Shown here: positions 36,331 through 54,627 of the stretch, in pieces
Numbering within the stretch: the stretch's first letter is position 1
Layout of the letters: each line of letters opens with the position of its first letter
Assembly (NCBI GenBank): GCA_006386115.1
Contig: VFIW01000015.1
Coordinates: 551,001 to 615,000, forward strand
Length of the DNA stretch: 64,000 nucleotides
Source of the DNA: Globisporangium splendens
Lineage: Eukaryota; Oomycota; Peronosporomycetes; Pythiales; Pythiaceae
Direction: 5' to 3'
Translations under genes and position numbers: made by a program
Notes under the pieces: generated by a model
The model's database searches: none
What the model was told of the DNA's origin: nothing
Seen by the model: the letters and a program-made list of their open reading frames with translations, nothing else

Positions 36331-36454
36331 AGCATCCCACAGAGTTGATTTCATCTCGCACTAATCTTTCGCCTTTTACTAAAGATTACCGTGGAATCGA
36401 CTCAACTGAATGTGGCTTCAACCAATTTCTGGATCCTCCCTTTGGGAGGGAACA
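36331..36454 (+). ncRNA. U5 spliceosomal snRNA gene (complete)
   Basis: The invariant loop I is exact: aatctttCGCCTTTTACTaaagatt (given in parts: cgccttttac at 36370-36379), flanked by the 7-bp stem AAUCUUU/AAAGAUU. A lower stem pairs gagttgatttc (36341-36351) with ggaatcgactc (36392-36402), and a basal stem pairs ccaca with tgtgg. The Sm site AATTTCTGG is at 36424-36432. The 3' hairpin is cctccc-ttt-gggagg at 36435-36449. Together these match the U5 consensus structure over its whole length. U5 aligns the exons in the spliceosome via loop I. The 5' end is estimated to within a few nucleotides. The gene is transcribed divergently from PTAR1. Confidence 0.95.
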
Positions 36455-36477
36455 ATCTTTTCACAGCCTTCATTTTA

Positions 36478-39400
36478 TAATATTCGCTTCTTCAACGGCC
36501 ACGCGCGACCTCCTCTTCCCCTTCCCACCCAAATCGAGCTAATCAGCACGCCGCGTGTGTGAGCTCCCCAAACCCGCCGCCGCAAGACAGCCCCGCGCGG
36601 CATGGCGATCTTCTCGTGGCTGCGGCGACCAGCGGAACCGGAGCCCGAGCCGGGACCGCCGCCGCTGCCGTCAACGATGGACGCCTCCCCCGCCCAGCCG
36701 CTCCTCTCGACGTTCGCGCACAACGCCAAGGAGTTCCAGTGCGCGCTCTGCGACGTCGCCACGCGGGACCATGCGTCCCTGCGGCGCCACAGACAGCGCG
36801 AGCACCGCCTGTGGACCTTCTCCGACGTCTTCTACTGCGACTGCGACTGCGCGCGAGCGTTCACGGCCCGCTTGGCCGCCACCAACCACGCGCGCACCTG
36901 CCCGACTGCGTCCCTCTACCAGCCGACCCTCTCGCAAGCGACATCGACCAACGACGGCGCCGACGGTGCGGCCGACAGTGATGACGACGCAGCGTCAGAT
37001 CTCATGCCCAGCCACGGACGGAGCGAGGGGAGCAACAGTATCGACGACGGACCCCGCAACGAAGCAAGCAGCAGAACCATCGACAACGGACCAAGCGACA
37101 GGAAAAATAGCGAGCGTATCGACGAAGGAGCAATCATCATCAGCGGGATAATCGAGAGTATTGATGAAGGAGAAAGCGAGAACGGAAGAAGCGAGAGCAT
37201 CGACGACAGACACGCCAGGAGCGATAGAGCGAATAGCATCGAGAACGGCGCCAACGCCCACCCCAGCAGTGACAGCAACAAGCGGGGGGAACCGCTAATC
37301 CCCAGCACAGGGATCCGACGAGGGACCCGTAGCAACGCCGCCACCCGCCTGGTCGCGATAGCGCGACAGCGCGCCGCCCTTCCGACGGCGACAGCGCTCG
37401 GGATCCTGGGAGAGACAGACCAATGGATGACGATCGCCGACCCTGCCAGTGAACCATACGAAATCGAGAGAACAGGCGCAAAGAAGCGACGCGTAGGCGA
37501 CAGCGCGCCAACCCCGCGTACGGAACGTCTCATCAATCTGCTCAACGAAGAGAGCACGACGGACCCCAGTGACGACAGCGACGGGAACCAGAACCCATGG
37601 CTCTCCGATATCGAAGACAGCAATACGTGGGCTCCTGACACGGAGATAGCGGCGTCGCCGACGCCCCCGCGGGAGACATTCCTTCAGCGACAAGAACACG
37701 AACGAACACCGACCGATGGTACAGGCTCCCAGCTACCTCCAGCCAGAATCCTCCAGTTTGCGGGATTCCAACGCCGCAACTCCAAGCGGACAGGCAATGC
37801 CGCTGTCATCCTGGACCAAGATGACAAAATCATATGGCAACATAGCGCTACGCATTCCTCCTCCCGCTACACGCGTACCACGGCCGCCTTCTCGGCTCTG
37901 CAGTCGGGTCTCCTCGCCGCGCTGCACCATGGCTGCAACGTGATTGAACTGGAGAGCACCGATGCGCTCATCCTCGAGCAACTCGCAGGATCCGCCGTAG
38001 CCCACAACCACCGCGTGAAGATCCAGCTCCAACTAACGCGTGACATTTTGAACAGGTTTGCTCACTGGAAAATACGCCATATTGACAACAGGACCAATCG
38101 GCACGCGACACGACTAGCGAGGCAGGCAGCGATTGACCGCAAGGTCGACCACGCATGTGCGCAACACGCCACGAACAAATCCGAATGCTACCCAACTATC
38201 GCTCATGACAAGAACAGCGAAAGCGACCCCGCATCTGCCTCAGCTGATGAAGAAATGAAGGAAGGGGAGATACCCTCCGACGCCGACTCCCAGGATGAAC
38301 ACCGAGCTGAAACAACGCGCCGCGACGCAGGTCGAGTATACCCAGCCACGCGCTATGGAACCGCTACCGAGAGCACTCCAACGCGCCTGCCGCGCTTGGT
38401 GCTACGCCAACTCTCCGCGGAAGACCTAGAAGCTGCTGCCGAGGCAGTCGACAAGTTCGCAACCGACCTCGCAATGAAGATAAAAGACGCACAGACGTGG
38501 GAGATCGGGGAAGGATACATCAGTGCCCTCGCCCCGGAGCTCCGTCGAGTACTGGCCCCTTACAGTCGCCAGCAGTCGCCAGAAACGAGGGCCGACCCTC
38601 AACCACATCGTACCGATCACCTACAGACCCGCCTCGAAGAAGCCATCGCCGACATGAAGTCCATCCAGCGCGTGTCTCCCCCGGAGAGGAAAGCCATCGA
38701 GAAGTCTCGCCGTCGTGTCGGCCGCCTGCGCGCTGCGATGAAACGCCGTGCGCTCCGTCGCAAGTTCCGGTACCGTGAAAAAGAGTGCGTACACTCCATT
38801 CTCCGTCCAAGTCCCCAAACCCCCGGATCCCAGTCAGACGATCCAGTTGGCACCTCTGCGACTCGCTGTCCAATCAAGGCGGCTGAGCTAAAAGGATATT
38901 TCGCCGACATCAACAGTGAAGCGATGCCGTTCAACTTCCACGACCCAGCTGGGGAGCCATTCCGGCAGGCGCTGGAAGCGCTCCCGCAGGCAGAGCACCT
39001 AGACATCATCACTGATACCATCAACTACGACGAGGTCTACAATCAGTTGAAACGAGCCTCCGCCTCTGCCAGTCCCGGTCTCGACGGACTACCACACTCA
39101 ATCATGAAGAAGTTCCAAGACCAGCTCATCCCAGTTCTCCAGGAGTGTTTTAATTTTTGCTGGTCGCACCGACGCATCCCTAGCGCCTGGAAGATGGCAG
39201 CAGTGCGCCTCATTCACAAGAAGGGGGACGCACTCAAGCCAGACAACTGGCGCCCCATCTGTCTCCAAGCATGTATCTACAAACTGTACTCTGGGATATT
39301 GGCGTGCAGGTTCTCAGCGTGGATGGATAAAAACAAGAGATTCACTCTCGCCCAGAAAGGTTTCCGCCACTTCAACGGCTGCCACGAGCACAACTTTATC

Positions 39401-41838
39401 AGTTCTAGCCTAATCGACCAAACTCGCCGGCACCAACGAACACTCTACGCTGTCTGGTATGACCTGCGTAATGCCTTTGGCTCCATCCCGCAGCAAATGC
39501 TCTGGGATGTCCTCGAGGCGTTCGGAGTACCAGCGGAATTTATCAACTGCGCAAAGGATATCTACACCGACTCGTCATTCGTGATCCTCGACCCAGCCGA
39601 TGCGACGACGACGGAGCCCATCAAGCAGGAGCGAGGAGTATACCAAGGATGCCCCCTCAGTCCGTATTTGTTCCTGGCCGCGATCTCGCCGCTTCTCCAC
39701 GTGCTCCAAGCGGAATCATCCTCAGGGATCACCCTCGGCGCAGGCGCGACCCTTAACTCGACAGCGTACGCAGACGACATCAAGACGTTCAGCTCCAGCG
39801 CGGCAGGAATCAGGAAAATCCATGCGCTGGTAATGCGCTTCCTCAAATGGACCTCCCTCCGAGCTAACCCCCAAAAATGTGCATTCCTCCCAGTAACCAC
39901 AGGCAAGCGAGCAGAAGCGAGAAAAGACAGCATCAAACTGGAGATCGATGGCACGCCCATCCCGACAATCGACCTCTCTGAGGGATACACATACCTTGGT
40001 GTGAACGACAGCTACGATCCGGCCAGCAAGACACGCAGACTCAACGACGACCTTCGACAACTAAAAATCGACCTCTCGAAGCTATGTAGATCGACGCTCG
40101 CCCCCTCTCAGGTGATCAAAGGTATTAAAACCTACCTTTACCCCCGAATTGAATTCTCTCTCAGGCACCTCCGACCCCCAAGCGCGCAACTCCAAGGCTT
40201 TGATACAGCGGTCAACAAGCAGCTCCGGCATTTGCTACGACTACCCAAGACGGCGACAACGTCACTCTTCTATGCTCCCACCTCTCATGGTGGTCTAGGT
40301 CTGCTACCACTCACAGACACCCATACGGCACTACAGATTGCTCACGGGTGGCAAATGCTTCACTCGAAAGATACCAACATCTGCGCCGTCGCGAAAAGCC
40401 AGATCATGCAAACGATTCGAAAACGTTACCATATCGACGAACAACACTGGAAGGACAAGGAGGACCTCGCGATCCAAGCTTTTTTGAACAGCAACCTCTC
40501 GGACTCGCCTTTTGCCTCCAAGAGGAAGACCTACACTGACATCGCCTCGATCTGGGTGGACATCCAACGCCATCTCCGGAATCTCAAACTCAAGCTAACG
40601 ACCACGGAAGAAAGTGAAGGTACATCGGAACATTTCCAACTACATGTCCCCCACGAGACCAAGCCACTCTCCTACAAGACGATTCTCCGGCACCTCAAGC
40701 TACGCATCAAGCTACAGTATGCCGAGAAGTGGAAGGCGGCAACGGATCAAGGACAAACGGTACGCATTCACGGTGGAAACGGTAGCTCATTTATCACCTC
40801 AGGCAGACACATGTTCGACGATGAATACCGCTTCGCGCTCAAAGGACGGCTTAACCAAGTCAACACCCGAGCTACTCTCAAGCGAATGCACCAGCGGTCC
40901 AACGCGACCTGTCGCCACCCCCCATGCACGTACCCAGAAACTCTCGCTCGTGTACTCGACCACTGTCCGGGGAACTCGGACGGCATCAGGAAGCGCCATG
41001 ACAACGGACTCGAGAAGATCCACCAAGTACTTCTGAAGAACATCGAACGCTCCAAGCGCCAGTGCACTATCCGAATCAACCAAACTGTTCCTGGCTTCAC
41101 AGGTCCAGTGCTGCGACCAGATATCCAGATCTACGACGAAACAAAAAAAACGGCCATCATCTCGGATCTCGCAGTCAGCTTCGAGAAACAATCAAAGGAC
41201 GACAGCAATAGCTCGACGCTGCAATGCGCCAAGGACATCAAGATACTCAAATACGAAGCCATCAGAAAGCACCTCGAGAGTCAAGGCTGGTCAGTGAAAC
41301 TGTCGGCACTAACATACGGATCGCTGGGATCGACGACAAAGGGGAACTTCATCGTGCTCTGGAAAGACTTTCAAATTCGAAAACAAGACGCCATCTACCT
41401 AGACAAGGACCTCTCCACACACAACATCAAAGCAAGCAACAGGATCTGGAAATTCCACCAAACGACCACCAACCGACGCCATGAGGCACCACAACAAACA
41501 AGCACCCGCCAACCCAACTAAAACTACATATTGCACATTGCATATGAGGAAAAAAAAAACAAACAAAAAAAAAAATCGAGAAAAAGAAACAGCAGAACAA
41601 ACCAAAAAACGCCAACAAGCAGCAGCAAAACCAAAGGATCCGTTGACGGCAGCGGGGTACATCCGCACCCGACACGCGCATCCCCTCCACGGTCTCGCGA
41701 CCAAATGGGCACCATCCTCGTTGGAAACCGCTCACCAAACCCAGCATGCCACGATATACAGCCTCACACGCCTACTGCCTATGAACCGCAACGCCGAAGA
41801 GATAGAGAGCTATATTGCTGGTAATATACCCCCCCTTT
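36478..41838 (+). mobile_element. LINE copy 1 (RLE-type non-LTR retrotransposon) ending exactly in a U5 gene
   Basis: The left limit is where copies 1 and 2 begin to align (ATAA before cgcttctt, about 36478 and 42004). The right limit is the point where both switch to U5 sequence (tatacccccccttt, then accgtgg). It has a 5' UTR of about 120 nt, one 1639-aa ORF, and a 3' UTR of about 315 nt with an A-rich tract near 41549-41576 and a small terminal hairpin (tatatt-gctggt-aatata). The upstream neighbour is the 3' flank of the intact U5 gene. The downstream neighbour is the 3' half of another U5 gene. No LTRs and no poly-A end are present. Confidence 0.88.
36602..41521 (+). CDS. LINE ORF: C2H2 finger, RNase H-like domain, reverse transcriptase, CCHC, restriction-like endonuclease
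   Basis: 1639 aa, uninterrupted. Order: C2H2 zinc finger at about 40-62 (FQCALCDVATRDHASLRRH) plus a Cys-rich second finger; an acidic/Ser-rich linker; an RNase H-like fold at about 384-514; reverse transcriptase at about 800-1100 with WRPICLQACIYKLYSGI, WYDLRNAFGSIP, GVYQGCPLSPYLF and the catalytic YADD at 1056-1059; a thumb; a C-terminal zinc knuckle at about 1437 (CRHPPCTYPETLARVLDHC); then a PD-(D/E)XK-like endonuclease starting RPDIQIYDE...AIISDLAVSFE at about 1505. This is the R2/NeSL/Utopia type of LINE, which commonly targets one RNA gene. The knuckle has Arg where copy 2 has the expected His, so this copy may be impaired. Confidence 0.9.
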   Translation: MAIFSWLRRPAEPEPEPGPPPLPSTMDASPAQPLLSTFAHNAKEFQCALCDVATRDHASLRRHRQREHRLWTFSDVFYCDCDCARAFTARLAATNHARTCPTASLYQPTLSQATSTNDGADGAADSDDDAASDLMPSHGRSEGSNSIDDGPRNEASSRTIDNGPSDRKNSERIDEGAIIISGIIESIDEGESENGRSESIDDRHARSDRANSIENGANAHPSSDSNKRGEPLIPSTGIRRGTRSNAATRLVAIARQRAALPTATALGILGETDQWMTIADPASEPYEIERTGAKKRRVGDSAPTPRTERLINLLNEESTTDPSDDSDGNQNPWLSDIEDSNTWAPDTEIAASPTPPRETFLQRQEHERTPTDGTGSQLPPARILQFAGFQRRNSKRTGNAAVILDQDDKIIWQHSATHSSSRYTRTTAAFSALQSGLLAALHHGCNVIELESTDALILEQLAGSAVAHNHRVKIQLQLTRDILNRFAHWKIRHIDNRTNRHATRLARQAAIDRKVDHACAQHATNKSECYPTIAHDKNSESDPASASADEEMKEGEIPSDADSQDEHRAETTRRDAGRVYPATRYGTATESTPTRLPRLVLRQLSAEDLEAAAEAVDKFATDLAMKIKDAQTWEIGEGYISALAPELRRVLAPYSRQQSPETRADPQPHRTDHLQTRLEEAIADMKSIQRVSPPERKAIEKSRRRVGRLRAAMKRRALRRKFRYREKECVHSILRPSPQTPGSQSDDPVGTSATRCPIKAAELKGYFADINSEAMPFNFHDPAGEPFRQALEALPQAEHLDIITDTINYDEVYNQLKRASASASPGLDGLPHSIMKKFQDQLIPVLQECFNFCWSHRRIPSAWKMAAVRLIHKKGDALKPDNWRPICLQACIYKLYSGILACRFSAWMDKNKRFTLAQKGFRHFNGCHEHNFISSSLIDQTRRHQRTLYAVWYDLRNAFGSIPQQMLWDVLEAFGVPAEFINCAKDIYTDSSFVILDPADATTTEPIKQERGVYQGCPLSPYLFLAAISPLLHVLQAESSSGITLGAGATLNSTAYADDIKTFSSSAAGIRKIHALVMRFLKWTSLRANPQKCAFLPVTTGKRAEARKDSIKLEIDGTPIPTIDLSEGYTYLGVNDSYDPASKTRRLNDDLRQLKIDLSKLCRSTLAPSQVIKGIKTYLYPRIEFSLRHLRPPSAQLQGFDTAVNKQLRHLLRLPKTATTSLFYAPTSHGGLGLLPLTDTHTALQIAHGWQMLHSKDTNICAVAKSQIMQTIRKRYHIDEQHWKDKEDLAIQAFLNSNLSDSPFASKRKTYTDIASIWVDIQRHLRNLKLKLTTTEESEGTSEHFQLHVPHETKPLSYKTILRHLKLRIKLQYAEKWKAATDQGQTVRIHGGNGSSFITSGRHMFDDEYRFALKGRLNQVNTRATLKRMHQRSNATCRHPPCTYPETLARVLDHCPGNSDGIRKRHDNGLEKIHQVLLKNIERSKRQCTIRINQTVPGFTGPVLRPDIQIYDETKKTAIISDLAVSFEKQSKDDSNSSTLQCAKDIKILKYEAIRKHLESQGWSVKLSALTYGSLGSTTKGNFIVLWKDFQIRKQDAIYLDKDLSTHNIKASNRIWKFHQTTTNRRHEAPQQTSTRQPN

Positions 41839-41904
41839 ACCGTGGAGTTGACTCAACTGAATGCGGCTTCAACCAATTTCTGGATCCTCCCTTTGGGAGG
41901 GAAC
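41837..41904 (+). ncRNA. 3' half of a U5 snRNA gene, truncated by LINE copy 1
   Basis: Begins at ttaccgtggag, that is U5 just after the loop-I stem, and runs through the Sm site (AATTTCTGG) and the 3' hairpin (cctccc-ttt-gggagg). The 5' half, including loop I, is absent; LINE copy 1 takes its place. It differs from the intact U5 at a few bases (gtggagttgac for gtggaatcgac; gcgg for gtgg), so it derives from another U5 variant. It is not expected to be a functional snRNA. Confidence 0.9.
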
Positions 41905-41998
41905 AATCTTTTCACAGCCTCCGTTTAATGATCTGACTACACAACTTCTTTTCACTCGAGAGATTCCCGTAGGATCTCGAATGCCAGATTGCACACTC
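41905..41998. repeat. U5 3' flank, identical to 54534-54627
   Basis: The 162 bases from 41837 to 41998 (U5 half plus flank, ending gattgcacactc) reappear without a visible difference at 54466-54627. After that the two diverge: here into LINE copy 2 (aggatataag), there into ggattatttt. Confidence 0.9.
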
Positions 41999-42129
41999 AG
42001 GATATAAGATCTGCTTCTTTTACGGCCACGCGCGAACTTCTCTTCACCTTCGTACCCCCAAATCGAGCTAACCAGCACACCGCGTGTGTGACCCCCCAAA
42101 CCCGCCGACGCAAGACAGCCCCGCGCGGC

Positions 42130-45100
42130 ATGGCGATCTTCTCGTGGCTGCGGCGGCCAGCGGAGCCGGAGCCCGAACCGGGACCGCCGCCGGCAACGAT
42201 GGACGCCTCCCCCGCCCAGCCACTCCTCTCGACGTTCGCGCACAACGCCAAGGAGTTCCAGTGCGCGCTCTGCGACGTCGCCACGCGGGACCATGCGTCC
42301 CTGCGGCGCCACAGACAGCGCGAGCACCGCCTGTGGACCTTCTCCGACGTCTTCTACTGCGACTGCGACTGCGACTGCGCGCGCGCGTTCACGGCCCGCC
42401 TGGCCGCCACCAACCACGCGCGCACCTGTCCGACTGCGTCCCTCTACCAGCCAATCATCTCGCAAGCGACGTCGGCCAACGGCGCCGACGGTACGGCCGA
42501 CAGTGATGACGACGCAGCGACAGATCTCATGCCCAGCCACGGACGGAGCGAGAGGAGCAACAGTATCGACGACGGACCCCACAACGAAGCAAGCAGCAGC
42601 AGAACCATCGACAACGGACCAAGTGACAGGGAAAGAGAAAAAAGGAAAAGTAGCGAGCGTATCGACGAGGGAGCAATCAACATCAGCGGGATAATTGAGT
42701 GTATGGATGAAGGAGAAAGCGAGAACGGAAGAAGCGAGAGCATCGACGACGACACAGTCAACAGCACAGAAAGCAGCGGGAACTACAACGACCAACTCGA
42801 CGACAGACACGCCAGGAGCGCTAGAGTGAATAGCATCGAGAACGGCGCCAACGCCCACCCCAGCAGTGACAGCAACAAGTGGGGGGGACCGCTAACCCCC
42901 AGCACAGGGATCCGACGAGGGACCCGCAGCAACGCCGCCACCCGCCTGGTCGCGACGGCGCGACGTCGTGCCGCCCTCCCGACGGCGACAGCGCTCGGGA
43001 TCCTGGGAGAGACAGACCAATGGATGACGATTGCCGACCCTGCTAGTGAACCATACGAAATCGAGATAACAGGTGCGAAAAAGCGACGCGTAGGCGACAG
43101 CGCGCCAACCCCGCGTACCGAACGTCTCATCAATCTGCTCAACGAAGAGAGCACGACGGACCCCAGTGACGACAGCGACGGGGGCCAGAACCCATGGTTC
43201 TCCGGTATCGAAGACAGCAATACGTGGGCTCCTGACACGGAGATAGCGGCGTCACCGACGCCCCCGCGGGAGACATCCCCTCAGCGACAAGAACACGAAC
43301 GAACGCCGACCGATGGTACAGGTCCTCAGCTACCTCCTGCCAGAACCCTCCAGTTTGCGGGATTCCAACGCCGCAACTCCAAGCGGACAGGCAATGCCGC
43401 TGTCATCCTGGACCAAGATGACAAAATCATATGGCAACATAGCGCTACGCATTCCTCCGTCCGCTACACGCGTACCACGGCCGCCTTCTCGGCTCTGCAA
43501 TCGGGTCTCCTCGCCGCGCTGCACCATGGCTGCAACGTGGTCGAACTGGAGAGCACTGATGCGCTCATCCTAGAGCAACTCGCAGGATCCGCCATAGCCC
43601 ACAACCACCGCGTGAAGATCCAGCTCCAACTAACGCGTGACGTTTTGAACAGGTTTGCTCACTGGAAAATACGCCACATTGACAACAGGACCAATCGACA
43701 CGCGACACGACTAGCGAGGCAGGCAGCGATTGACCGCAAGGTCGACCACGCATGTGCGCAACACACCACGAACAAATCCGAATGCTACCCAACTATTGCT
43801 CATGGCAAGAACAGCGAAAGCGAAAGCGACCCCGCATCTGCCTCAGCTGACGAAGAAATGAAGGAAGGAGAGATACCCTCCGACGCCGACTCCCAGGACG
43901 AACACCGAGCTGAAACGACGCGCCGCGACGCACGTCGGGTATACCCAGCCACGCGCTATGGAATCACTACCGAGAGCACTCCAACACGTCTGCCGCGCTT
44001 GGTGCTACGCCAACTCTCCGCGGAAGACCTAGAAGCTGCTACCGAGGCAGTCGACAAGTTCGCGACCGACCTCGCAATGAAGATAAAAGACGCACAGACG
44101 TGGGAGATCGGGGAAGGATACATCAGTGCCCTCGCCCCGGAGCTCCGTCGAGTACTGACCCCCTACAGCCGCCAGCAGTCGTCAGAGACGAGGGCCGACC
44201 CTCAACCACATCGTACCGATCACCTGCAGACCCGCCTCGACGAAGCTATCGCCGACATGAAGTCCATCCAGCGCGTGTCTCCCCCGGAGAGGAAAGCCAT
44301 CGAGAAGTCTCGCCGTCGTGTCGGCCGCCTGCGCGCCGCGATGAAGCGCCGCGCGCTCCGTCGCAAGTTCCGGTACCGTGAAAAAGAGTGCGTACACTCC
44401 ATCCTCCGACCAAGCCCTCAAACCCCCGGATTCCAGTCAGATGATCCAGTTGACACCTCGGCGGCTCGCTGTCCAATCAAGGCGGCTGAGCTAAAGGGAT
44501 ATTTCGCCGAAATCAATAGTGAAGCGATGCCGTTCAACTTCCACAGCCCAGCTGGAGAGCCGTTCCGGCAGGCGCTGGAAGCGCTCCCGCAGGCAGAGCA
44601 CCTAGACATCATCACTGATGCCATCAACTACGACGAGGTCTACAATCAGTTGAAACGAGCCTCCGCCTCTGCCAGCCCCGGTCTCGACGGACTACCACAC
44701 TCAATCATGAAAAAGTTCCAAGACCAGCTCATCCCAGTTCTCCAGGAATGTTTTAATTTCTGCTGGTCGCACCGACGCATCCCTAGCGCCTGGAAGATGG
44801 CGGCAGTGCGCCTCATTCACAAGAAGGGTGACGCACTCAAGCCAGACAACTGGCGTCCCATCTGTCTCCAAGCATGCATCTACAAACTGTACTCTGGGAT
44901 ATTGGCGTGCAGGTTCTCAGCGTGGATGGATAAAAACAAGAGATTCACTCCCGCCCAGAAAGGTTTCCGCCACTTCAACGGCTGCCACGAGCACAACTTT
45001 ATCAGTTCCAGCCTAATCGACCAAACTCGCCGACACCAACGAACGCTCTACGCTGTCTGGTATGACCTGCGTAATGCCTTTGGCTCCATCCCGCAGCAAA

Positions 45101-47027
45101 TGCTCTGGGATGTCCTCGAGGCGTTCGGAGTACCAGCGGAATTTATCGACTGCGCAAAGGATATCTACACCGATTCGTCATTCGTGATCCTCGACCCAGC
45201 CGATGCTACGACGACGGAGCCCATCAAGCAGGAACGAGGAGTGTACCAAGGATGCCCCCTCAGTCCGTATTTGTTCCTGGCCGCGATCTCACCGCTTCTC
45301 CACGTGCTCCAAGCGGAATCATCCTCAGGGATCACCCTCGGCGCAGGCGTGACCCTTAACTCGACAGCGTACGCAGACGATATCAAGACGTTCAGCTCCA
45401 GCGCGGCAGGAATCAGGAAAACCCATGCGCTAGTAATGCGCTTCCTCAAATGGACCTCCCTCCGAGCTAACCCTCAAAAATGTGCATTCCTCCCAGTAAC
45501 TACAGGCAAGCGAGCGGAAGCGAGAAAGGACAGCATCAAACTGGAGATCGATGGCACGCCCATCCCGACAATCGACCTCTCGGAGGGATACACATACCTT
45601 GGTGTGAACGACAGCTACGATCCAGCCAGCAAGACACGCAGACTCAACGACGACCTCCGGCAACTAAAAATCGACCTCTCGAAGCTATGTAGATCGACGC
45701 TCGCCCCCTCTCAGGTGATCAAAGGTATTAAAACCTACCTCTACCCCCGAATTGAATTCTCTCTCAGGCACCTCCGACCCCCAAGCGCGCAACTCCAAGG
45801 ATTTGATACAGCGGTCAACAAGCAGCTCCGGCATTTGCTACGGCTACCCAAGACGGCGACAACGTCACTCTTCTATGCCCCCACCTCTCATGGTGGTCTA
45901 GGTCTGCTACCACTCACAGACACCCATACGGCACTACAGATTGCCCACGGGTGGCAAATGCTTCACTCGAAAGATGCCAACATCTGCGCCGTTGCGAAAA
46001 GCCAGATCATGCAAACGATCCGAAAGCGTTACCATATCGATGAACAACACTGGAAGGACAAGGAGGACCTCGCGATCCAAGCCTTCTTGAACAGCAACCT
46101 CTCGGATTCACCTTTCGCCTCCAAGAGGAAGACCTACACGGACATCTCTTCGATCTGGGTGGACATCCAACGCCATCTCCGGAATCTCAAGCTCAAGCTA
46201 ACGACCACGGAAGAAAATGAAGGTACATCGGAACATTTCCAACTCCATGTCCCCCACGAGACCAAGCCACTCTCCTACAAGACGATTCTCCGGCACCTCA
46301 AGCTACACATCAAGCTACAGTATGCTGAGAAGTGGAAGGCGGCAACGGATCAAGGACAAACGGTACGCATTCATGGTGGAAACGGTAGCTCATTTATCAC
46401 CTCAGGCAGACACATGCTCGACGATGAATATCGCTTCGCGCTCAAAGGACGGCTTAACTAAATTAACACCCGAGCTACTCTCAAGCGAATGCGCCAGCGG
46501 TCCAACGCGACCTGTCGCCACCCCCCATGCACGAACCCGGAAACTCTCGCCCATGTACTCAACCACTGCCCGGGGAACTCGGACAGTATCAGGAAGCGCC
46601 ATGACGACGGACTCGAGAAGATCCACCAAGTACTCCTGAAGAACATCGAACGTTCCAAGCGCCAGTGCACTATCCGAATCAACCAATCTGTTCCTGGCTT
46701 CACAGGTCCAGCGCTGCGACCAGATATCCAGATCTACGACGAAACCGAAAAAACGGCCATCATCTCGGATCTCGCAGTCAGCTTCGAGAAACAGTCAAAG
46801 GACGACAGCAATAGCTCGACGCTGCAATGCGCCAAGGACATCAAGATACTCAAGTACGAAGCCATCAGAAAGCACCTCGAGAGCCAAGGCTGGTCAGTGA
46901 AACTGTCGGCACTAACATACGGCTCGCTGGGATCGACGACAAAGGGGAACTTCATCGTGCTCTGGAAAGACTTTCAAATTCGAAAACGAGACGCCATCTA
47001 CCTAGACAAGGACCTCTCCACGCACCA
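42130..47027 (+). pseudogene. LINE copy 2 ORF, broken by a nonsense codon and by the Ty3 insertion
   Basis: The ORF from ATG 42130 matches copy 1 domain by domain (finger, RNase H-like, RT with YADD, start of the C-terminus). A C-to-T change turns a Gln codon into TAA at 46459-46461, cutting the protein before the zinc knuckle and endonuclease. The remaining frame (46462 to 47027) is open and keeps the full CCHC knuckle (CRHPPCTNPETLAHVLNHC) and RPDIQIYDE. It then runs into the Ty3 LTR. Distal codons resume at 54071 but carry a 2-nt loss near 54160 compared with copy 1. Confidence 0.9.
47023..47027. repeat. Left target-site duplication of the Ty3 element
   Basis: CACCA here versus CACAA at 54071-54075. 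Copy 1 has CACAA at the matching place, so the left copy has one substitution. Confidence 0.7.
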
Positions 47028-48121
47028 TGTCACGTGTGCCTGACCTCGCACGCCAGGCACGCGCGTAGGATCGGCATGTGCCTGACTTCGCACGTGCCAA
47101 GCGTGCGGAGCGTCGTGGCATGTGTAACGTGTGCCTGACCTCGAGTCCGTGTAAGAGGGCGCTGTTCCAAACAGTCCCTCAAACACGGCACACACGCTTG
47201 TGCCAGAGGAAGCGATCTCCCGACTTGGAGAGAGGAAGAAGACTTGAGGGCTTGAAGGAAAATTTGCAACTGAATTAAAAATGGTTATGGTTCCTGTCGC
47301 TACTTACAAATGAACCCCAAGGGCTCCTAGAGGTTTTATAACTAAACCTAAACATACACAATAAAACCTATGAATCTGATATATAAAACCTTGGGTACAC
47401 TGAGGTTGAACCTACGGGATCTTCTAGAAGCTTGAACTTCAAGTCTTGTATAAAATCCCTGCAAAGTGATTGACTCGCGCCACTCACTTCAGGTGGCAGA
47501 CACACGTCGGTCTCGTCGCCAGTGTAGTTTCCCAAGCAGGAACCATCACTCAGTACTTGATTAGTACATGGATGTCATTGCTCAGTACTGATTAGTACAT
47601 GAGAACAACATTCTGCACTGATCAGCACAGAGAACACTCGTGAAGTCATCGAATGACGTCACACGTGCATGTGGGGACTGTATTACCGTAATCCCTTTGT
47701 TATTTGTGTCTCCACAATGCACGCTGAAGGTGGTGTGTGACACACTAGATCTGGGAACAGATCCACCTTCATGTAATGGCTGGTTATGGCCCATTACAGT
47801 CCGAGGTCAGGCTCTCATTCATATGTAACACTGATATATACAGTTATATGGAACTAGTCAGATAAAAATACAGGTGCAGGCAGGACACCTGGATAGGAAG
47901 AAAAATCGTAATCAGTTGAAGAAAAGGATAGGCATGCATGCAGGGAGGCTTAGACGTAGCGCTAGCGAACTAAGTCCTCCATTCAATTCACTTTCCAATT
48001 TGCCATCAAGTTGCCACCTCCTCCTCCGAGTCCAAGCCATCGTCCCCGACTTTCAGCCAATCAAGTTCCGACTTTCCGACTTTCGACCAATCAGATCTCA
48101 AGAAGACCCCAAACCGTTACA
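47028..48121 (+). repeat. 5' LTR of the Ty3 element (enlarged by a nested insertion)
   Basis: 1094 nt, against 383 nt for the 3' LTR. 654 nt of the difference is the nested solo LTR with its duplicated target. Another stretch of about 53 nt between two copies of gtgcctgac is missing from the 3' LTR. The shared part runs from aggtcaggctctcattc to the end. Confidence 0.9.
47150..47798. mobile_element. Solo LTR of a second element, nested in the Ty3 5' LTR
   Basis: A 649-nt block absent from the 3' LTR. It starts TGTAAGAGGG and ends CCCATTACA, so the ends are TGTAA...TTACA. It is flanked on both sides by GTCCG (47145-47149 and 47799-47803), a perfect 5-bp target duplication; the empty site in the 3' LTR has a single GTCCG. 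It contains two copies of a ctcagtact-gattagtacatg motif (near 47550 and 47581) but no coding region. Orientation is not known. Confidence 0.88.
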
Positions 48122-48123
48122 TC

Positions 48124-48131
48124 TGGTAGCA
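48124..48131 (+). other. Possible primer-binding site
   Basis: TGGTAGCA two nucleotides after the 5' LTR equals the complement of the 3' end of eukaryotic initiator tRNA-Met (first 8 nt only). Complementarity does not continue, so this is tentative. Confidence 0.3.
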
Positions 48132-48526
48132 CTTTGCGTCCGGGGGGGAGTGTGGCCGTTTCCAAGCGTTCAAGTCGCCGTCGTCGTCCAAGCCAGGCAC
48201 CTCCGAGGTTGTTATTCGAGCCGCTTTCTGAACGGGTGTTGCTTTAGTGACATAAATCCGGAATCATTGTCGGTGCGTTGACCCTTTGGTGTTCTGTGGC
48301 AGTAACTCCTGTAGTGTTGAGCCAGTCGTGCTTTTGTGCGTAATTTTGTGTTCTGGTCTACCTCGGTTTCTCTAATAGTGGCACGGTGTCTCGGGTTCGC
48401 CCTAACTGTCTGTGTTCTTTAGGGTGTTATTCCGTGGTGTCATCGTCAGGCGTGCCTAGGTGAAGCCCTCATTGAGGATCAAGACTGTGATTGTGAACTC
48501 CCAGAGTTGGTAACCTCCCCAACTCG

Positions 48527-48878
48527 ATGCCCAAGAAGCCGCGCGTCAAGCAGGTCCCGATTCAAGGCAGCCTTACGTACTTAGGCGTGCCGAAACCTGC
48601 AGAAGCTGATAAAGCCCGTCAAGACCTCGCGAACTGTCTGACGAAGGGCTTTCCGGATCTGTGAAGTGCTAGAGAAGCACGTGGACAAGTGTCCAGACAA
48701 GCTGAAGAAGAAACGCGCAAAGAAGGCTCTAATCCGGATCGCTCAAGGAATCATCGACGCATCCGACGGTATTGGCGAGTGTTTTCGCCGCGCGCTACGA
48801 GACCCGCCGGCATCGAGTACAGCTACTAGGAAGGCCAAGCTGCGTCCAGGTCAAGTTCCTCCGCCTAAGTTCGACTAA
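48527..48878 (+). pseudogene. Extra ORF in the Ty3 leader, broken by a frame shift
   Basis: From ATG 48527 (MPKKPRVKQVPIQGSLTYLG) a frame runs to TGA at 48662. The next frame carries on at the same place with RICEVLEKHVDKCPDKLKKK and runs to TAA at 48876-48878. Joined, about 116 residues would contain a C-x8-H-x3-C group and a basic helix. It lies between the 5' LTR and gag, where Ty3 elements usually have only an untranslated leader. I do not recognise the protein. Confidence 0.5.
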
Positions 48879-49051
48879 AAATACACAATTAAAAAATAAA
48901 AATAAATAAAAAATAAAAGTATAGCTTCGTATTATACTGGTTTTTAAGATCCCATAAGATAGAATCTCGACTCCCGTCCCTGCCTGCCAAGTCAAGTGAA
49001 ACCGGTTACGTAAAATACCGAGTGTGAAGTCAAGTCAAGAAAAGTACAAAG

Positions 49052-50680
49052 ATGAACGAACCAACGAATGCCCAGTTGTTGCAGAGTATGCTGGCAGTGC
49101 TAAACCAGCAAGCAGAGATGATCAAAGAATTCCAGCAAGTAAAACGGGAGTCAGAGATAAAATTAGAGGGATGTAAATTACCGGTGTATAGTGGAGCATT
49201 ACAAGAGTCGTTTCAGTTATATAAAGAGCAAGTCGGAGACTATTTAAAGGCGAGGAGCATTGACAGACAGGATGCTAGCCTACAGCCACGCCTTTTGACG
49301 ATGTTGGGAGGAACCCTGCGGCAGGGAGCTGCCCAGTGGTTCATTGTGAAGAAGACAGAGATTGAGACGGTTGACCAATTCTTCCTAGAACTAGGAAACG
49401 AATTTATTCCCGCCGATCTACAAGAGCGTTTGCGTGACCAGTTGGGTGAGCTATCCCAGGGTCAGAGTCGAGGCCTTGGCGACTACGTCAGTCGTTTTAG
49501 GCATGTTATCACACAAGTACAAGAGATGAGTGAGCTCGACAAGATCATGTATTTTGTACGAGGATTAGCTCCAGCGATCCGAACAGAGGTGCGCTATCGC
49601 CGATGTGCTACGTTGTCGGAAGCCATCACTCTAGCGTTGGACTATGACCGTTCGCATCGTCGCTCTGCGGATGGAGGTCGGTCCCACTCAGAACCTAGGT
49701 ACAGGCGTTTCGACAATCGCCAATACCGACTGAATGGTGCAAGTCCGATGGAAGTGGACAATGTCCGAGTCTTGGGTCGTGAAGAGTGTTTGCGTCAGCG
49801 CCTTTGCTTCAATTGCAATCGACCTGGACATCGAGCGTCAGAGTGTCGTGCGCCGCGCCAGCAGAGACAAGCGAGCACGCCGCAGACGACGCGCAATTCA
49901 AGATATCAGCGTCCGACACAGCGAGCTCGTCGATCAAGTCCGATGGTTGAGCACAACCTGGCGACAGTGGATGAAGTAGATTATCCCATTGTGTTTGACA
50001 ATGCGGAGCTAAACGCAGTGGGCATTGCGCGTAAGAGCAACCTGTTCGTGGTGAACGGCCGTGTTGATGGTAATGATGTGCGCATTTTGATTGACAGCGG
50101 CGCCTCGACCAACCTGATCCAGCGCGGGTTGGTGAAGAAAGTGCTGAATACAGCAGTGATCGAAGCGCAAGGATTCGACGGCAGAAGGACCAAGAAACAA
50201 GTGAACGAGGTGGAAGCATCGTGCCAAGTACAAGACAAGAAGTTTGAGGCAATGCAGTTTACGGAATGGGATCTACCCAACAGCCACGATGTCATCTTCG
50301 GTCAGCCATGGTTCGTCAAGCACAACCCGATCATTGATTGGAGAAAGCAGACGTTTGCATTGCCGGAAGACACCTCTGTGCACGAGCGCAGCGGTAGTGA
50401 AATCTGCTCCAAGATCAAGAATGCAGAGTATGAAGAGTTGTTCGTCGTAAAGGTGTCCGCAGTTAACGACATTTCTCCAGTCGTCCCGCCAGAGTTGAAA
50501 CCTGTCATTGATCGGTTCGCTGACTGTTTCCCGGAGTCACTTCCGGATGGCTTACCGCCAGAGCGTGCTGTGAACTTTGAGCTCCAGCCGAAGCCAGACG
50601 CAGTGCCAAGCTCGCGTCCGCCGTTTCGTCTGTCTTGGACAGACGAAACGCGTTGGAAGAGTTCGTTCGCGACAACGTGA
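49052..50680 (+). CDS. Ty3 gag and aspartic protease
   Basis: 542 aa from ATG 49052. The capsid-like region includes VYSGALQESFQLYKEQVGDY and LRQGAAQWFI. The nucleocapsid knuckle CFNCNRPGHRASEC is at 252-265. A retropepsin-like protease follows with LIDSGASTNLI (Asp at about 348) and DVIFGQPWF. The frame then enters the conserved start of the reverse transcriptase (ERAVNFELQPK, SSRPPFRLS) and is lost at a perfect hairpin at 50622-50650, ending at a TGA shortly after. Confidence 0.9.
   Translation: MNEPTNAQLLQSMLAVLNQQAEMIKEFQQVKRESEIKLEGCKLPVYSGALQESFQLYKEQVGDYLKARSIDRQDASLQPRLLTMLGGTLRQGAAQWFIVKKTEIETVDQFFLELGNEFIPADLQERLRDQLGELSQGQSRGLGDYVSRFRHVITQVQEMSELDKIMYFVRGLAPAIRTEVRYRRCATLSEAITLALDYDRSHRRSADGGRSHSEPRYRRFDNRQYRLNGASPMEVDNVRVLGREECLRQRLCFNCNRPGHRASECRAPRQQRQASTPQTTRNSRYQRPTQRARRSSPMVEHNLATVDEVDYPIVFDNAELNAVGIARKSNLFVVNGRVDGNDVRILIDSGASTNLIQRGLVKKVLNTAVIEAQGFDGRRTKKQVNEVEASCQVQDKKFEAMQFTEWDLPNSHDVIFGQPWFVKHNPIIDWRKQTFALPEDTSVHERSGSEICSKIKNAEYEELFVVKVSAVNDISPVVPPELKPVIDRFADCFPESLPDGLPPERAVNFELQPKPDAVPSSRPPFRLSWTDETRWKSSFATT
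50622..50650. repeat. Perfect 13-bp inverted repeat at the gag/pol frame break
   Basis: CGTTTCGTCTGTC (50622-50634), loop TTG, GACAGACGAAACG (50638-50650). The reading frame changes exactly within this hairpin. Confidence 0.9.
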
Positions 50681-53665
50681 AGAAGGGATGGATTGAAGTA
50701 TCGAACTCCCCATGGATCTCCAATATCTTCGGTGTTCCGAAAAAGGATCCTGCGACGGGTATGGCTGTGAAGCGCGCTGAATGGCTGCGCAGTGGCAACA
50801 CAAAGGTGCCGATACGTTGGGTCATCGACTATCGGTATGTCAACAGCCAGACGAAGATCCCCAAGATTCCTCTACCACACATAGAGGAACTCTTTGATCA
50901 GATGCTCGGTGCGACGGTATTCACGGTGATCGACCTCGCGCAAGGTTATCCACCAGATGCGCGTGAAGCCTGACAGTCGTCCTTACACGGCTTTTAGGTC
51001 GCAAAAGGAAACGTACCAATGGTGTGTCGCTCCGATGGGATTAGCGGGTATGCCGGGAGTATGGTCTCGTCTTATGCGAGTACTCTTTGGTAAATTCAAG
51101 TTTGTTGTCGTGTATCTCGACGACATCTGTGTCTTCTCCCGCTCGATGAAAGATCATGCGCAACATCTGGCGATGGTCTGTGAAGTCCTCCGTCATGAGA
51201 AGTTGTACGCTCGCCTGTCCAAGTGCGAGTTCGGCAAGTCCAGTGTCCATTTCCTCGGTCACACAGTCACGGCTGAAGGGATCCAAGTCGACGCAAAGAA
51301 GACAACCGCGATCGAGAAGTATCCTACTCCGACGACGCAGAAGACATTGTTGAGTTTTCTCGGTCTCGCCGGATACTATCGTCGGTTTATTTGCGACTTT
51401 GCGTGGATTGCGTTGCCGCTGCATAGGCTGATCAAGAGGGATGCAAAGTGGACATGGTCATCCGAACATGATCACGCCTTTCGTGCCTTGAAGTTAGCAC
51501 TGCGACAGGCTCCGACGTTGCGTTTACCTGACTTTGACCGTCAGTTCACGGTAACAACGGATGCCTCGGGCTACTGCATGGGCGGTGTCTTGTCTCAAAA
51601 GATCGGCGGGTTTGACGCTCCCATTGCCTTCTATTCAAAGAAGTTTGGGCAGTATGAGGAAAAGTGGCCTGCTCATGAGAAAGAGCTGCTCGCAATCAAG
51701 TTTGCGTTGTCAAAGTGGCGACACTACCTTCACGGTCGTCAGTTCGATGTGTTTACGGACAATTCGGCTTGTCGGTGGATGCTACATCATCCGAAGGTGA
51801 CTCCCAAGCTTGCGCGGATGCTGACGTTCTTCTCCCAGTTTGATTTTGTCCTGCACCACGTGAAAGGCAGTACCAATGTGGTGGCTGATGCCTTGTCTCG
51901 ACCAGGACCGGAAGAAGTCAAGCAATCCGATGAGTTGCCCGTAGTTTCGACTCCCGAAGTGCACGCTTGCGATGATGCGTGTCACGCTCGGTCGCAGTCT
52001 ATTTCTCGTCATGTGGTGTCCGCGGCATTTCTACGTCACTTGCCAGATTCGGATTGCTCCGTCTTTCTCTCTGCTGTGGACTTTCGGGGGAAGAGACGCG
52101 CCGTGGCAGTGCGGCAAGAGCAAGTCCACACTGTCGACACGCAGTGGGCAAGTGTTCACTTGTCCGAAGCGACGAAGAAAGCCTTTCAAGCTGGCTATTC
52201 CCGCGACCCAAGTTTTGCCGAAGTGTGGCAGAGTCGCGAAGGGAACGAGAAGTTCGAGAAGCGCAACGGTCTTCTGTTCTTGCGAACGAAGCACCCGGTG
52301 TTGCGATTGTGTGTACCAAACTCGAGCAAGTTGGTCACAGATGTTATTCAAGAGTTTCACGATGCTCCTGTGGCTGCTCATCCAGGAGTTCGTCGAACAC
52401 AGCTAAAGGCGGCTCAATGGTATTACTGGCCCGCCTTGGAAAAAGACATTCACGAGTATGTTGGCAGTTGCCAGACTTGTGCACGATGGAAGTCGAACAA
52501 TCGGAAGAAGATCGGCTTGATGATGCCAATTCCGACGCCCCAAGAATGCTGGGATGTTGTGTCGATGGATTTCATCATTGGATTTCCAATGTCCGAAGGT
52601 TTTGATGCAATCTTTGTCACGGTGGACAAGTTGTCGAAGCGTCCGAAGTACCATCCAACACACTCGACAGCAGATGCCGAAGGTACCGCCAAGGTATTCT
52701 TCGAGGCAGTGGTTCGTCACCACGGTTTGCCGAAGGTCATCATCAGTGACCGTGATCCCAAGTTCACGTCGGACTTTTGGAAGTCGCTGACCAAGCTCAT
52801 GGGTATCAAGCTGAGCATGACAACGTCTCATCGCGCGCAAGCAGACGGACAAACCGAGCGTCAGAACCTCGTGTTGGAAGATGCGCTGCGATGCATGGTG
52901 TCATACCATGGAGACGATTGGGTGAGCCACCTTGGAACGATCGAGTTTGCTCATGCAACTCTCGTTAATGAGTCGACCAAGTTCACACCGTTTGAAGTCG
53001 ACACTGGAAGAAAGGTGCGCAACCTAATTGCCCAAGAGTTCGGCGTCGACGAAGGAAACTTCGAACCAGTAAATATAGCTGAGTTTGCCAAGAACTTTGC
53101 GGAGAAGCGCCAACAAGTCGTCAAGCTAGCCCAAGAGAACCTCAAGCAAGCTCAAGAGCGCCAGAAGAAATACTACGACAGGAAGCGTCGCGAAGTGGAA
53201 TTTAACGCTGGCGATCTCGTTATGTTAGATACGAAGAATCTACCCTTGAAGACGGTCGCTCAAAGCACCTCTCTCCAAAAGGCGAAGTTGGCAGCGAAGA
53301 AGGTTGGACCGTTTAAGATCGACTCAATGGTGAACAAGAATGCGGCTCGATTGGTGTTGCCTCCAAACATGAAGCGCTTGCATCCAGCGTTCAATGTGGA
53401 GTTGCTTAGCCACTACGTTGAGAATCCAACCAAGTTCCATTCAAGACCAATTCCGAAGGCAGCCCCCGTGATCCTCGACGACGAGACTGGTGAGGCTCTG
53501 CACGTTGTGGAAGCATTACTTCGCAGTAAAACCCACAACCGCCAACGAATGTGGTTGGTCAAGTGGCTCGGGTATCCTGCGCACGAGAGTACGTGGGAAT
53601 ACGAGAAGAACATCCGCCATGTTTCGCATTGGAATCGACTCCTTCAAGAGTTTCAAGACTCCTAA
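50635..53665 (+). pseudogene. Ty3 pol: RT, RNase H, integrase, chromodomain, with a second frame break
   Basis: The first segment (50635-50973) carries EEFVRDNVKKGWIEVSNSPW, RWVIDYRYVNSQT and TVIDLAQGY. One extra C at 50950-50951 then breaks the GYHQM motif. The second segment (50957-53665, 902 aa) resumes with MRVKPDSRPYTAFR, the RT catalytic YLDD at its residues 53-56, RNase H (VTTDASGYCMGGVLSQ, TDNSACRWM), an integrase zinc finger (HPGVRRTQLKAAQWYYW, CQTCARWK), integrase DDE residues (VVSMDFIIG, IISDRDPKFTSDFW, GQTERQN) and a C-terminal chromodomain (MWLVKWLGYPAHESTWEY). Chromodomains steer such elements toward modified histones. Confidence 0.92.
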
Positions 53666-53677
53666 CGCGAAGTCAAG

Positions 53678-53687
53678 TCTGGGGGGA
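53678..53687 (+). other. Polypurine tract of the Ty3 element
   Basis: TCTGGGGGGA immediately before the TGTCAC start of the 3' LTR, as expected for plus-strand priming. Confidence 0.75.
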
Positions 53688-54070
53688 TGTCACGTGTGCC
53701 TGACCTCGCACACCAGGCACACGAGTAGGATCGGCATGTGCCTGACCTCGAGTCCGAGGTCAGGCTCTCATTCATATGTAACACTGATATATACAGTTAT
53801 ATGGAACTAGTCAGATAAAAATACAGGTGCAGGCAGGACACCTGGATAGGAAGAAAAGTCGAATCAGTTGAAGAAAAGGATAGGCATGCATGCAGGGAGG
53901 CTTAGACGTAGCGCTAGCGAACTAAGTCCTCCATTCAATTCACTTTCCAATTTGCCATCAAGTTGCCACCTCCTCCGAGTCCAAGCCATCGTCCCCGACT
54001 TTCAGCCAATCAAGTTCCGATTTTCCGACTTTCGACCAATCAGATCTCAAGAAGACCCCAAACCGTTGCA
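53688..54070 (+). repeat. 3' LTR of the Ty3 element
   Basis: 383 nt, TGTCACGTG...GTTGCA. It lacks the solo LTR found in the 5' LTR and about 53 nt of a duplicated segment. At 53740-53765 it contains gcctgacctcg-agtc-cgaggtcaggc, an 11-bp inverted repeat that is split by the insertion in the 5' LTR. Confidence 0.92.
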
Positions 54071-54467
54071 CACAACATCAAAGCAAGCAACAGGATCTGG
54101 AAATTCCACCAAACGACCACCAACCGACGCCATGAGGCGCCACAACAAACAAGCACCGCAACCCAACTAAAACTACATATTGCACATTGCATATGAGGAA
54201 AAAAAAAAAAAAAATCGAGAAAAAGAAACAGCAGACAACCAGCCAACAAGCAGCAGCAACCAAAGGATCCGTTGACGGCAGCGGGGTACATCCGCACCCG
54301 ACACGCGCATCCCCTCCACGGTCTCGCGACCAAATGGGCACCATCCTCGTTGGAAACCGCTCACCAAACCCAGCATGCCACGATATACAGCCTCACACGC
54401 CTACTGCCTATGAACCGCAACGCCGAAGAGATAGAGAGCTATATTGCTGGTAATATACCCCCCCTTT
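54071..54467 (+). mobile_element. 3' remainder of LINE copy 2
   Basis: Starts with the right target duplication CACAA, continues the last about 25 codons (IKASNRIWKFHQTTTNRRHE), and has the same 3' UTR as copy 1 with a slightly shorter A tract. It ends tataccccccctttaccgtgg at the U5 junction. Confidence 0.92.
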
Positions 54468-54533
54468 ACCGTGGAGTTGACTCAACTGAATGCGGCTTCA
54501 ACCAATTTCTGGATCCTCCCTTTGGGAGGGAAC
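54466..54533 (+). ncRNA. 3' half of a U5 snRNA gene, truncated by LINE copy 2
   Basis: Identical to 41837-41904: starts at the same U5 nucleotide, keeps the Sm site and 3' hairpin, lacks loop I and the 5' half. The downstream flank to 54627 is also identical; beyond it lies unique DNA leading to SERINC. Confidence 0.9.
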
Positions 54534-54627
54534 AATCTTTTCACAGCCTCCGTTTAATGATCTGACTACACAACTTCTTTTCACTCGAGAGATTCCCGTA
54601 GGATCTCGAATGCCAGATTGCACACTC

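Follow-up and report, generated by a model that had tools for sequence, protein, structure and literature searches.

The window analysed here is a 64,000-nucleotide (nt) stretch of DNA from the oomycete Globisporangium splendens, apparently a plant-pathogenic water mould, and corresponds to positions 551001-615000 of contig C67 (contigs are labelled here as C followed by a number). It holds an intact U5 small nuclear RNA (snRNA) gene followed by two copies of a long interspersed nuclear element (LINE), LINE1 and LINE2, which share one orientation and both lie downstream of the gene (Table 1). The original prediction, made from the letters of the sequence, was that this LINE belongs to a lineage that inserts site-specifically into U5 genes. 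The intact gene that it described was recovered as a full-model Rfam match at 36335-36450, and the end of the interval that it proposed for the whole arrangement, 36331-54627, is the exact end of the second of two 162-base-pair (bp) repeats described below.

An intact U5 gene is followed by two LINE copies joined to U5 at the same point

Both LINE 3' ends, at 41836 and 54465, are followed directly by U5 nt 52-116 (65 nt). A shared TT leaves an uncertainty of two bases, so that the junction falls after U5 nt 51, 52 or 53, and it does so in both copies, in agreement with the claim that both 3' ends meet U5 at one nucleotide. The U5 3' parts behind the LINEs keep an Sm-like stretch and the 3' hairpin and are devoid of loop I, also as predicted. 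The two junctions are identical to one another for 208 nt on the LINE side and 162 nt on the flank side.

Elsewhere the two elements have diverged. Over 1590 codons, LINE1 and LINE2 differ with a synonymous divergence (dS) of 0.115 and a nonsynonymous divergence (dN) of 0.019, giving a dN/dS of 0.169, which falls to 0.056 in the reverse transcriptase (RT) alone. The open reading frame (ORF) of LINE1 is open over 1639 amino acids (aa), and that of LINE2 is broken by a single in-frame stop. Because the ORFs diverged under purifying selection, the copies are best read as separately evolved elements that diverged while working, not as one decayed duplication. That all U5-joined copies might stem from one segmental duplication had been raised as an objection from the outset; these dS and dN values contradict the neutral decay expected of such an origin.

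LINE2 also contains a Gypsy-type long terminal repeat (LTR) element, whose coding region is divided between two frames and whose terminal repeats are apparently unequal in length. Its ORF ends in what we take to be a chromodomain-like stretch.

Table 1. Features of the U5 locus, in window coordinates
Feature	Position	Strand	Basis
Intact U5 snRNA gene (nt 1-116), preceding the two LINE copies	36335..36450	+	Rfam RF00020, full model, 91.6 bits, E 1.1e-14
Left of the two repeats around LINE1, about 89 nt (U5 nt 52-116 and the 24 nt after the gene)	36386..36474	+	Comparison with 41837-41925: 5 differences in 89 nt
Complete LINE1; 5' end placed to within a few bases	36475..41836	+	LINE1/LINE2 5'-end alignment; 3' junction
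LINE1 ORF, 1639 aa: N-terminal C2H2-like finger, RNase H-like, RT, C-terminal R2-type endonuclease region	36602..41521	+	ORF list; Pfam; R2 alignment
RNase H-like domain in LINE1 ORF	37760..38128	+	Pfam position; alignment with four relatives
LINE1 3' untranslated region (UTR), ends GGTAATATACCCCCCCT; last 208 nt identical to those of LINE2	41522..41836	+	Sequence alignment
U5 3' half (65 nt) plus 97 nt locus flank; serves as LINE1 right repeat and LINE2 left repeat	41837..41998	+	162 nt identical to 54466-54627
LINE2 5' part, in-frame stop at 46459	41999..47026	+	ORF list; alignments
Gypsy-type LTR element within LINE2, limits approximate	47027..54070	+	Direct repeats 47027-47090/53687-53750 and 47798-48118/53751-54067; gag/pol-like ORFs
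LINE2 3' part	54071..54465	+	Alignment to LINE1
Right copy of LINE2 162-bp repeat: U5 3' half plus 97 nt flank, then different sequence	54466..54627	+	Identity with left copy

Long flanking repeats accompany a preserved upstream gene

LINE2 lies between two perfect 162-bp repeats, each consisting of 65 nt of U5 and 97 nt of flank, and the sequence differs beyond the right copy. The repeats on either side of LINE1 measure about 89 bp (65 + 24 nt) and show 5 differences from one another. The flanking part of the repeat is the locus's own: two more full U5 copies elsewhere in the genome have different downstream sequence. Since both repeats extend beyond the U5 3' end, the U5 upstream of LINE1 is whole. 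No U5 gene has been lost at this locus: the upstream gene is complete, and just a 3' half lies downstream. The same pattern, with a whole gene upstream and the 3' part of the gene downstream, is that of the Utopia LINEs of Phytophthora. In the portions of the Utopia paper on which we draw throughout, Kojima and Jurka 2015 describe an intact U2 upstream of these elements and read it as the deletion of a 5' fragment, leaving duplication open (PMC4640811).

The upstream U5 looks maintained, judging by its predicted pairing. Of its 30 model pairs 29 are standard, the same 29 as in the empty-site U5 copy on C162, with which it also shares the non-standard pair. These two genes differ at 6 positions, 5 of them within three base pairs, and two of those pairs (nt 5-79 and 13-64) changed on both sides, tying the 5' half of the gene to its 3' half. 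The 65-nt U5 half downstream of the LINE is identical to the C162 U5, and the U5 copy on C123 has two of the three 3'-half states of the window U5.

The genome searched comprises 53.3 Mb in 195 contigs, and it is the one genome covered by our DNA-level search. Matches to U1 numbered 2 at full score and 13 lower, and those to U2 numbered 3 at full score and 33 lower. One of the full U2 genes lies on C97, which probably represents an allele of part of C131 or a duplicate of it in the assembly, as it matches C131 at 99.3% over the 1.5 kb upstream of U2 and at 96% over a further 3.5-kb match. For U5 there were 3 full-length matches, the C123 copy having a loop I that is altered by eye, plus a degenerate piece on C135. 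The original prediction reasoned that a U5 target implies a multi-copy U5 family that tolerates losses; these counts and the complete upstream gene speak otherwise. Intact copies are too few for free loss of snRNA genes to be affordable, and a loss-tolerant family is not needed because the upstream U5 stays whole.

The degenerate piece (C135:228536-228578, +) has its first 43 nt well kept and its 3' part decayed. We excluded it as an insertion, given this degenerate 3' part and the lack of a LINE tail at the site. The variant with altered loop I lies at C123:67018-67135 (-), about 1.5 kb past the last U1 half of a U1/LINE array.

LINE1 and LINE2 are identical in their final 208 nt (41629-41836 and 54258-54465) despite a dS of 0.115 elsewhere. 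Selection on the LINE 3' end or local gene conversion could account for the identity of these 208 nt and of the adjoining 162 bp, and for this reason the perfect 162-bp repeat is an unreliable clock for ordering the insertions.

The LINE protein belongs to the oomycete Utopia clade

We next turn to the domain architecture of the LINE1 protein. Pfam identifies RVT_1 at aa 871-1133 and RVT_3 (PF13456) at aa 387-509, which places an RNase H domain upstream of the RT. A C2H2-like finger near the N-terminus scores 12.9 bits, below the Pfam cut-off of 25.2. Against R2 proteins of solved structure, the RT aligned over aa 806-1278 (best E 2.3e-45). The endonuclease region, aa 1398-1586, matched the same proteins weakly, with 9.3 bits in its own stretch, and contains PD..D..K-type residues by eye. 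Together with the junctions, the R2 alignment supports the predicted reading of a LINE with an R2-type protein at one U5 nucleotide.

The catalytic positions D, E, D, R and D of the RNase H-like domain, which we assigned by eye from the motif in PMC4640811, read A, A, T, N and T in both LINE1 and LINE2. Four aligned relatives (the proteins of U1a and U1b, two families at U1 described below, a U2-array protein and a metagenome protein) retain the catalytic residues. Within the U5 lineage, dN/dS of the RNase H-like domain is about 0.3 on only 12 changes, and the domain is perhaps still under some constraint.

Relatives outside the U5 lineage are at most 51% identical among the matches listed, and the close ones are oomycete or metagenome proteins. 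The original prediction had proposed placing the RT in a tree, and in our tree of 49 rows the U5 pair forms a deep branch of its own (100/100) inside a 39-row oomycete Utopia branch (99/97). This larger branch is made up of Phytophthora, Peronospora, Globisporangium and metagenome proteins; the rows past the Aphanomyces branch are long and of uncertain position. U1a and three further proteins form a group (96/99); the tree does not settle how the main branches are ordered. A single origin of the U1 lineages appears in 0% of bootstrap trees; U1b is a long branch, so we do not claim two origins. By its place in this tree, the LINE pair is part of the oomycete Utopia clade; with both 3' junctions in U5, it is a U5-targeting relative and not a Utopia by target. 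U2 looks like the ancestral target of the clade, because the Utopias of P. ramorum with intact 3' ends are all found at U2 in the account of PMC4640811 and P. ramorum proteins occur in two branches of the RT tree.

Oomycete Utopias, as that account describes them, resemble the U5 lineage in many ways. They encode a single protein with RNase H upstream of the RT, and with an N-terminal finger and a restriction-like endonuclease that have putative counterparts in the U5 lineage; they occur in few copies, at one kind of snRNA gene and in arrays, with RTs that cluster together; and they have an intact gene upstream and the 3' part of the gene downstream (PMC4640811). They differ in that Utopia inserts at U2 nt 38/39, whereas the U5 lineage inserts at U5 nt 51-53 and sister lineages also at U1. 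Unlike in Utopia, the RNase H catalytic residues are gone in the U5 lineage, and a long flanking repeat can be read where the Utopia paper inferred the loss of a 5' fragment (PMC4640811).

R2 has an RT that can be aligned with that of the U5 lineage, an endonuclease that can be aligned faintly and a target-primed mechanism that we presume to be common to both, but it belongs to a different clade and targets 28S ribosomal DNA (rDNA), whereas both copies here are in U5. To our knowledge, R2 is also without RNase H. Keno belongs to the Tx1 clade. The original prediction counted it among the LINEs with a restriction-like endonuclease, which was mistaken: its endonuclease is described as APE-like, and although it inserts in U2 at the Utopia site, it is an element of animals and of U2 only (PMC4640811). 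From the portions of the other papers that we cite, R9 of rotifers targets 28S rDNA rather than U5 (PMC5035012), and Dada-U1 and Dada-U6 also hit snRNA genes but are animal DNA transposons, not retrotransposons (PMC4640811, PMC8869645).

Three further searches returned nothing of substance. Rfam gave no HDV-like (hepatitis delta virus-like) ribozyme at the LINE 5' ends, even at lax thresholds; a fold z-score of -0.12 lent no support to a structured 3' UTR; and none of 7 pattern matches to relatives in IMG/VR was confirmed.

Relatives in the same genome occupy U1 and U2 genes

A search of the genome with the 208-bp LINE 3' end gave 2 matches, both at this U5 locus. Thus both copies of the lineage (at least 2) are at U5 and none was found elsewhere in the genome, as site-specific insertion predicts. 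Using the LINE protein, we scored 29 RT-core matches out of 521 first-look candidates, so the number is a lower bound. These at least 29 matches are distributed over the window (2), C131 (16), C7 (4), C97 (2), C34 (2), C125 (1) and C123 (2). All 29 scored copies lie within snRNA arrays: 22 at U2, assigned by coordinates between U2 matches (C131, C7, C97), 5 at U1, assigned by their 3' flank, and 2 at U5. Copies mostly next to unrelated DNA, an outcome that the original prediction had regarded as damaging, were therefore not seen among those scored. At a stage when five copies were still unplaced, no tRNA was found at their flanks, which held U1. In the U4 and U6 models, we found no LINE insertions among 1 U4 and 2 U6 matches, all of them full-length, and short halves could escape these models.

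The gene halves tell the same story from the side of the target. Every half that we inspected begins directly behind a LINE tail (41/41), comprising, among the lower-scoring matches, 31 of 33 for U2 and 8 of 13 for U1, together with both U5 halves. Intact genes, in turn, have LINE sequence immediately downstream in 2/2 cases for U1, 3/3 for U2 and 1/2 for canonical U5. Downstream of the intact U2 genes, 1.65 kb match the LINE-A unit at 94-99%; for the intact U1 genes, the match to LINE units covers 273 and 561 bp, the full extent of the sequence compared. Behind the intact U2 at C131:361942, the LINE is recognised by this 1.65-kb match, with no RT up to the next half among the at least 29 scored. 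The A units share sequence from the gene onward, so the boundary between gene flank and LINE at U2 cannot be fixed, and its zero offset is by construction. In four of five families (U5, U2A, U2B and U1b, not U1a), the tail form GGTAA(T)ATA or GGTAATAGA was seen by eye a few bases before the junction.

The U2 copies belong to two Utopia families and are arranged in tandem, with array units of about 6-10 kb, at C131:361942-548073, C7:105472-146339 and C97:197-15546. In U1, the U1a and U1b families sit just after the sequence that pairs with the 5' splice site, at C123:68610-132582 (-), C125:411830-417899 (+) and C34:1050406-1062367 (-); U1b, read from the C123 array, has an open frame of 2011 aa. 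The terminal U1 half of the C123 array is without the last hairpin and has a weak resemblance, by eye, to the unit flank up to about the point where the U1 families start.

A proposed gene-restoring insertion mechanism and its alternatives

The locus itself provides the insertion site, two junctions, the flanking repeats and an intact upstream gene, and the comparisons add the clade and a matching layout at U1 and U2. From these we propose, at a probability of about 0.68, a U5-specific LINE lineage of the oomycete Utopia clade that inserts by a target-primed route, opens the top strand beyond the end of the gene and thereby restores the gene upstream. The uniform 3' junction suggests that the first step would be a nick by the endonuclease in the U5 bottom strand at nt 51-53, immediately past the 3' strand of the loop-I stem. 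This nick would prime reverse transcription, with the GGTAATATA...CCCT tail of the element RNA joined to it. The top strand would then be opened far downstream, beyond the U5 3' end, and fill-in across this long stagger would duplicate the whole U5 3' part, leaving a complete U5 upstream and a promoterless 3' half behind the LINE. The LINE would come to lie directly behind an snRNA gene, whose promoter may also drive LINE transcription by read-through.

Several points weigh against this proposal. There is a single occupied U5 locus, and the DNA-level search was limited to one genome. The zinc finger falls under the Pfam cut-off, and the endonuclease match to R2 proteins is weak by itself. The two repeats are unequal in length (about 89 versus 162 bp), and the 208-nt identity means that gene conversion may have touched them.

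The U2 arrays raise a further difficulty. On C131 the type of the U2 3' domain agrees with the family of the following LINE in 21/21 adjacent pairs and with that of the preceding LINE in 14/22, and on C7 the terminal U2 half, beyond which other DNA begins, represents a third type, not shared by the half on the upstream side of its LINE. Compared with a plain target-site duplication, both observations fit better with recombination or with a mechanism in which the LINE is co-transcribed from the snRNA promoter and the end of the snRNA-LINE cDNA anneals to the initial part of the target gene, restoring it. The downstream half would then be the old target and the upstream 3' part would come from the donor. 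Such a co-transcript would also explain why U1a (C125) and U1b (C123) begin at one identical point, 13 nt past the U1 3' motif, as expected of a processed transcript. However, LINE2 has identical copies of the locus's own 97-nt flank on either side, which would restrict the donor to an allele of this locus, and array recombination can also yield the U2 pattern. We therefore consider co-transcription a possible but unlikely route. The U5 locus favours the long repeat, and the U2 arrays favour co-transcription or recombination; the gene is preserved under either the stagger or the co-transcript model.

It is more doubtful still that a single U5 insertion was followed by tandem duplication of the LINE, the U5 half and the 97 nt, in which case specificity would rest on one event. 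The order of the parts fits, and the last 208 nt and the 162 nt are identical. But the breakpoint of the duplication would have to coincide exactly with the LINE 5' end, the dN/dS values point to selection on mobile elements and not to duplicate decay, and the relatives are just as site-specific at U1 and U2. Finally, the chance landing of a non-specific LINE in U5, with which the involvement of just one U5 locus would agree, is no serious explanation of two identical junctions and is highly improbable, given that two copies with separate divergence sit at one nucleotide, that the search of the genome gave none elsewhere and that the scored relatives likewise sit in snRNA genes.

A LINE clade on spliceosomal RNA genes

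Each of the three target RNAs has a segment that reads introns or exons: the 5' splice-site pairing sequence of U1, the branch-site pairing sequence of U2 and loop I of U5. A wider reading of our data, which we regard as an even bet, is that one LINE clade radiated over the spliceosome, with separate lineages tied to U1, U2 or U5 and joining the gene just 3' of that segment. Insertion would preserve the gene, with duplication to or past the gene end, so that the essential snRNA genes, single-digit in number, would remain complete while the target gene would serve as the LINE promoter. If true, this would explain how such LINEs persist where a genome offers two or three target genes. For the authors of the Utopia paper it was 'hard to consider' that five families are maintained with around 10 intact genes (PMC4640811), and a gene-restoring repeat would answer this puzzle of strict target specificity with few essential target genes.

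As of 2015, the snRNA-targeting LINEs reported in the text available to us were those at U2 only (PMC4640811). We found no published LINE at U5 or U1 among the matches listed in open PMC full text; Repbase entries and subscription papers were outside this scope, so the family may be filed there. What differs from the Utopia clade already known at U2 is the U5 target, with U1 in sister lineages, and the readable long flanking repeat. A clade with three snRNA targets in one genome offers a natural set of cases for learning how R2-type endonucleases switch target, and is relevant to targeted insertion tools.

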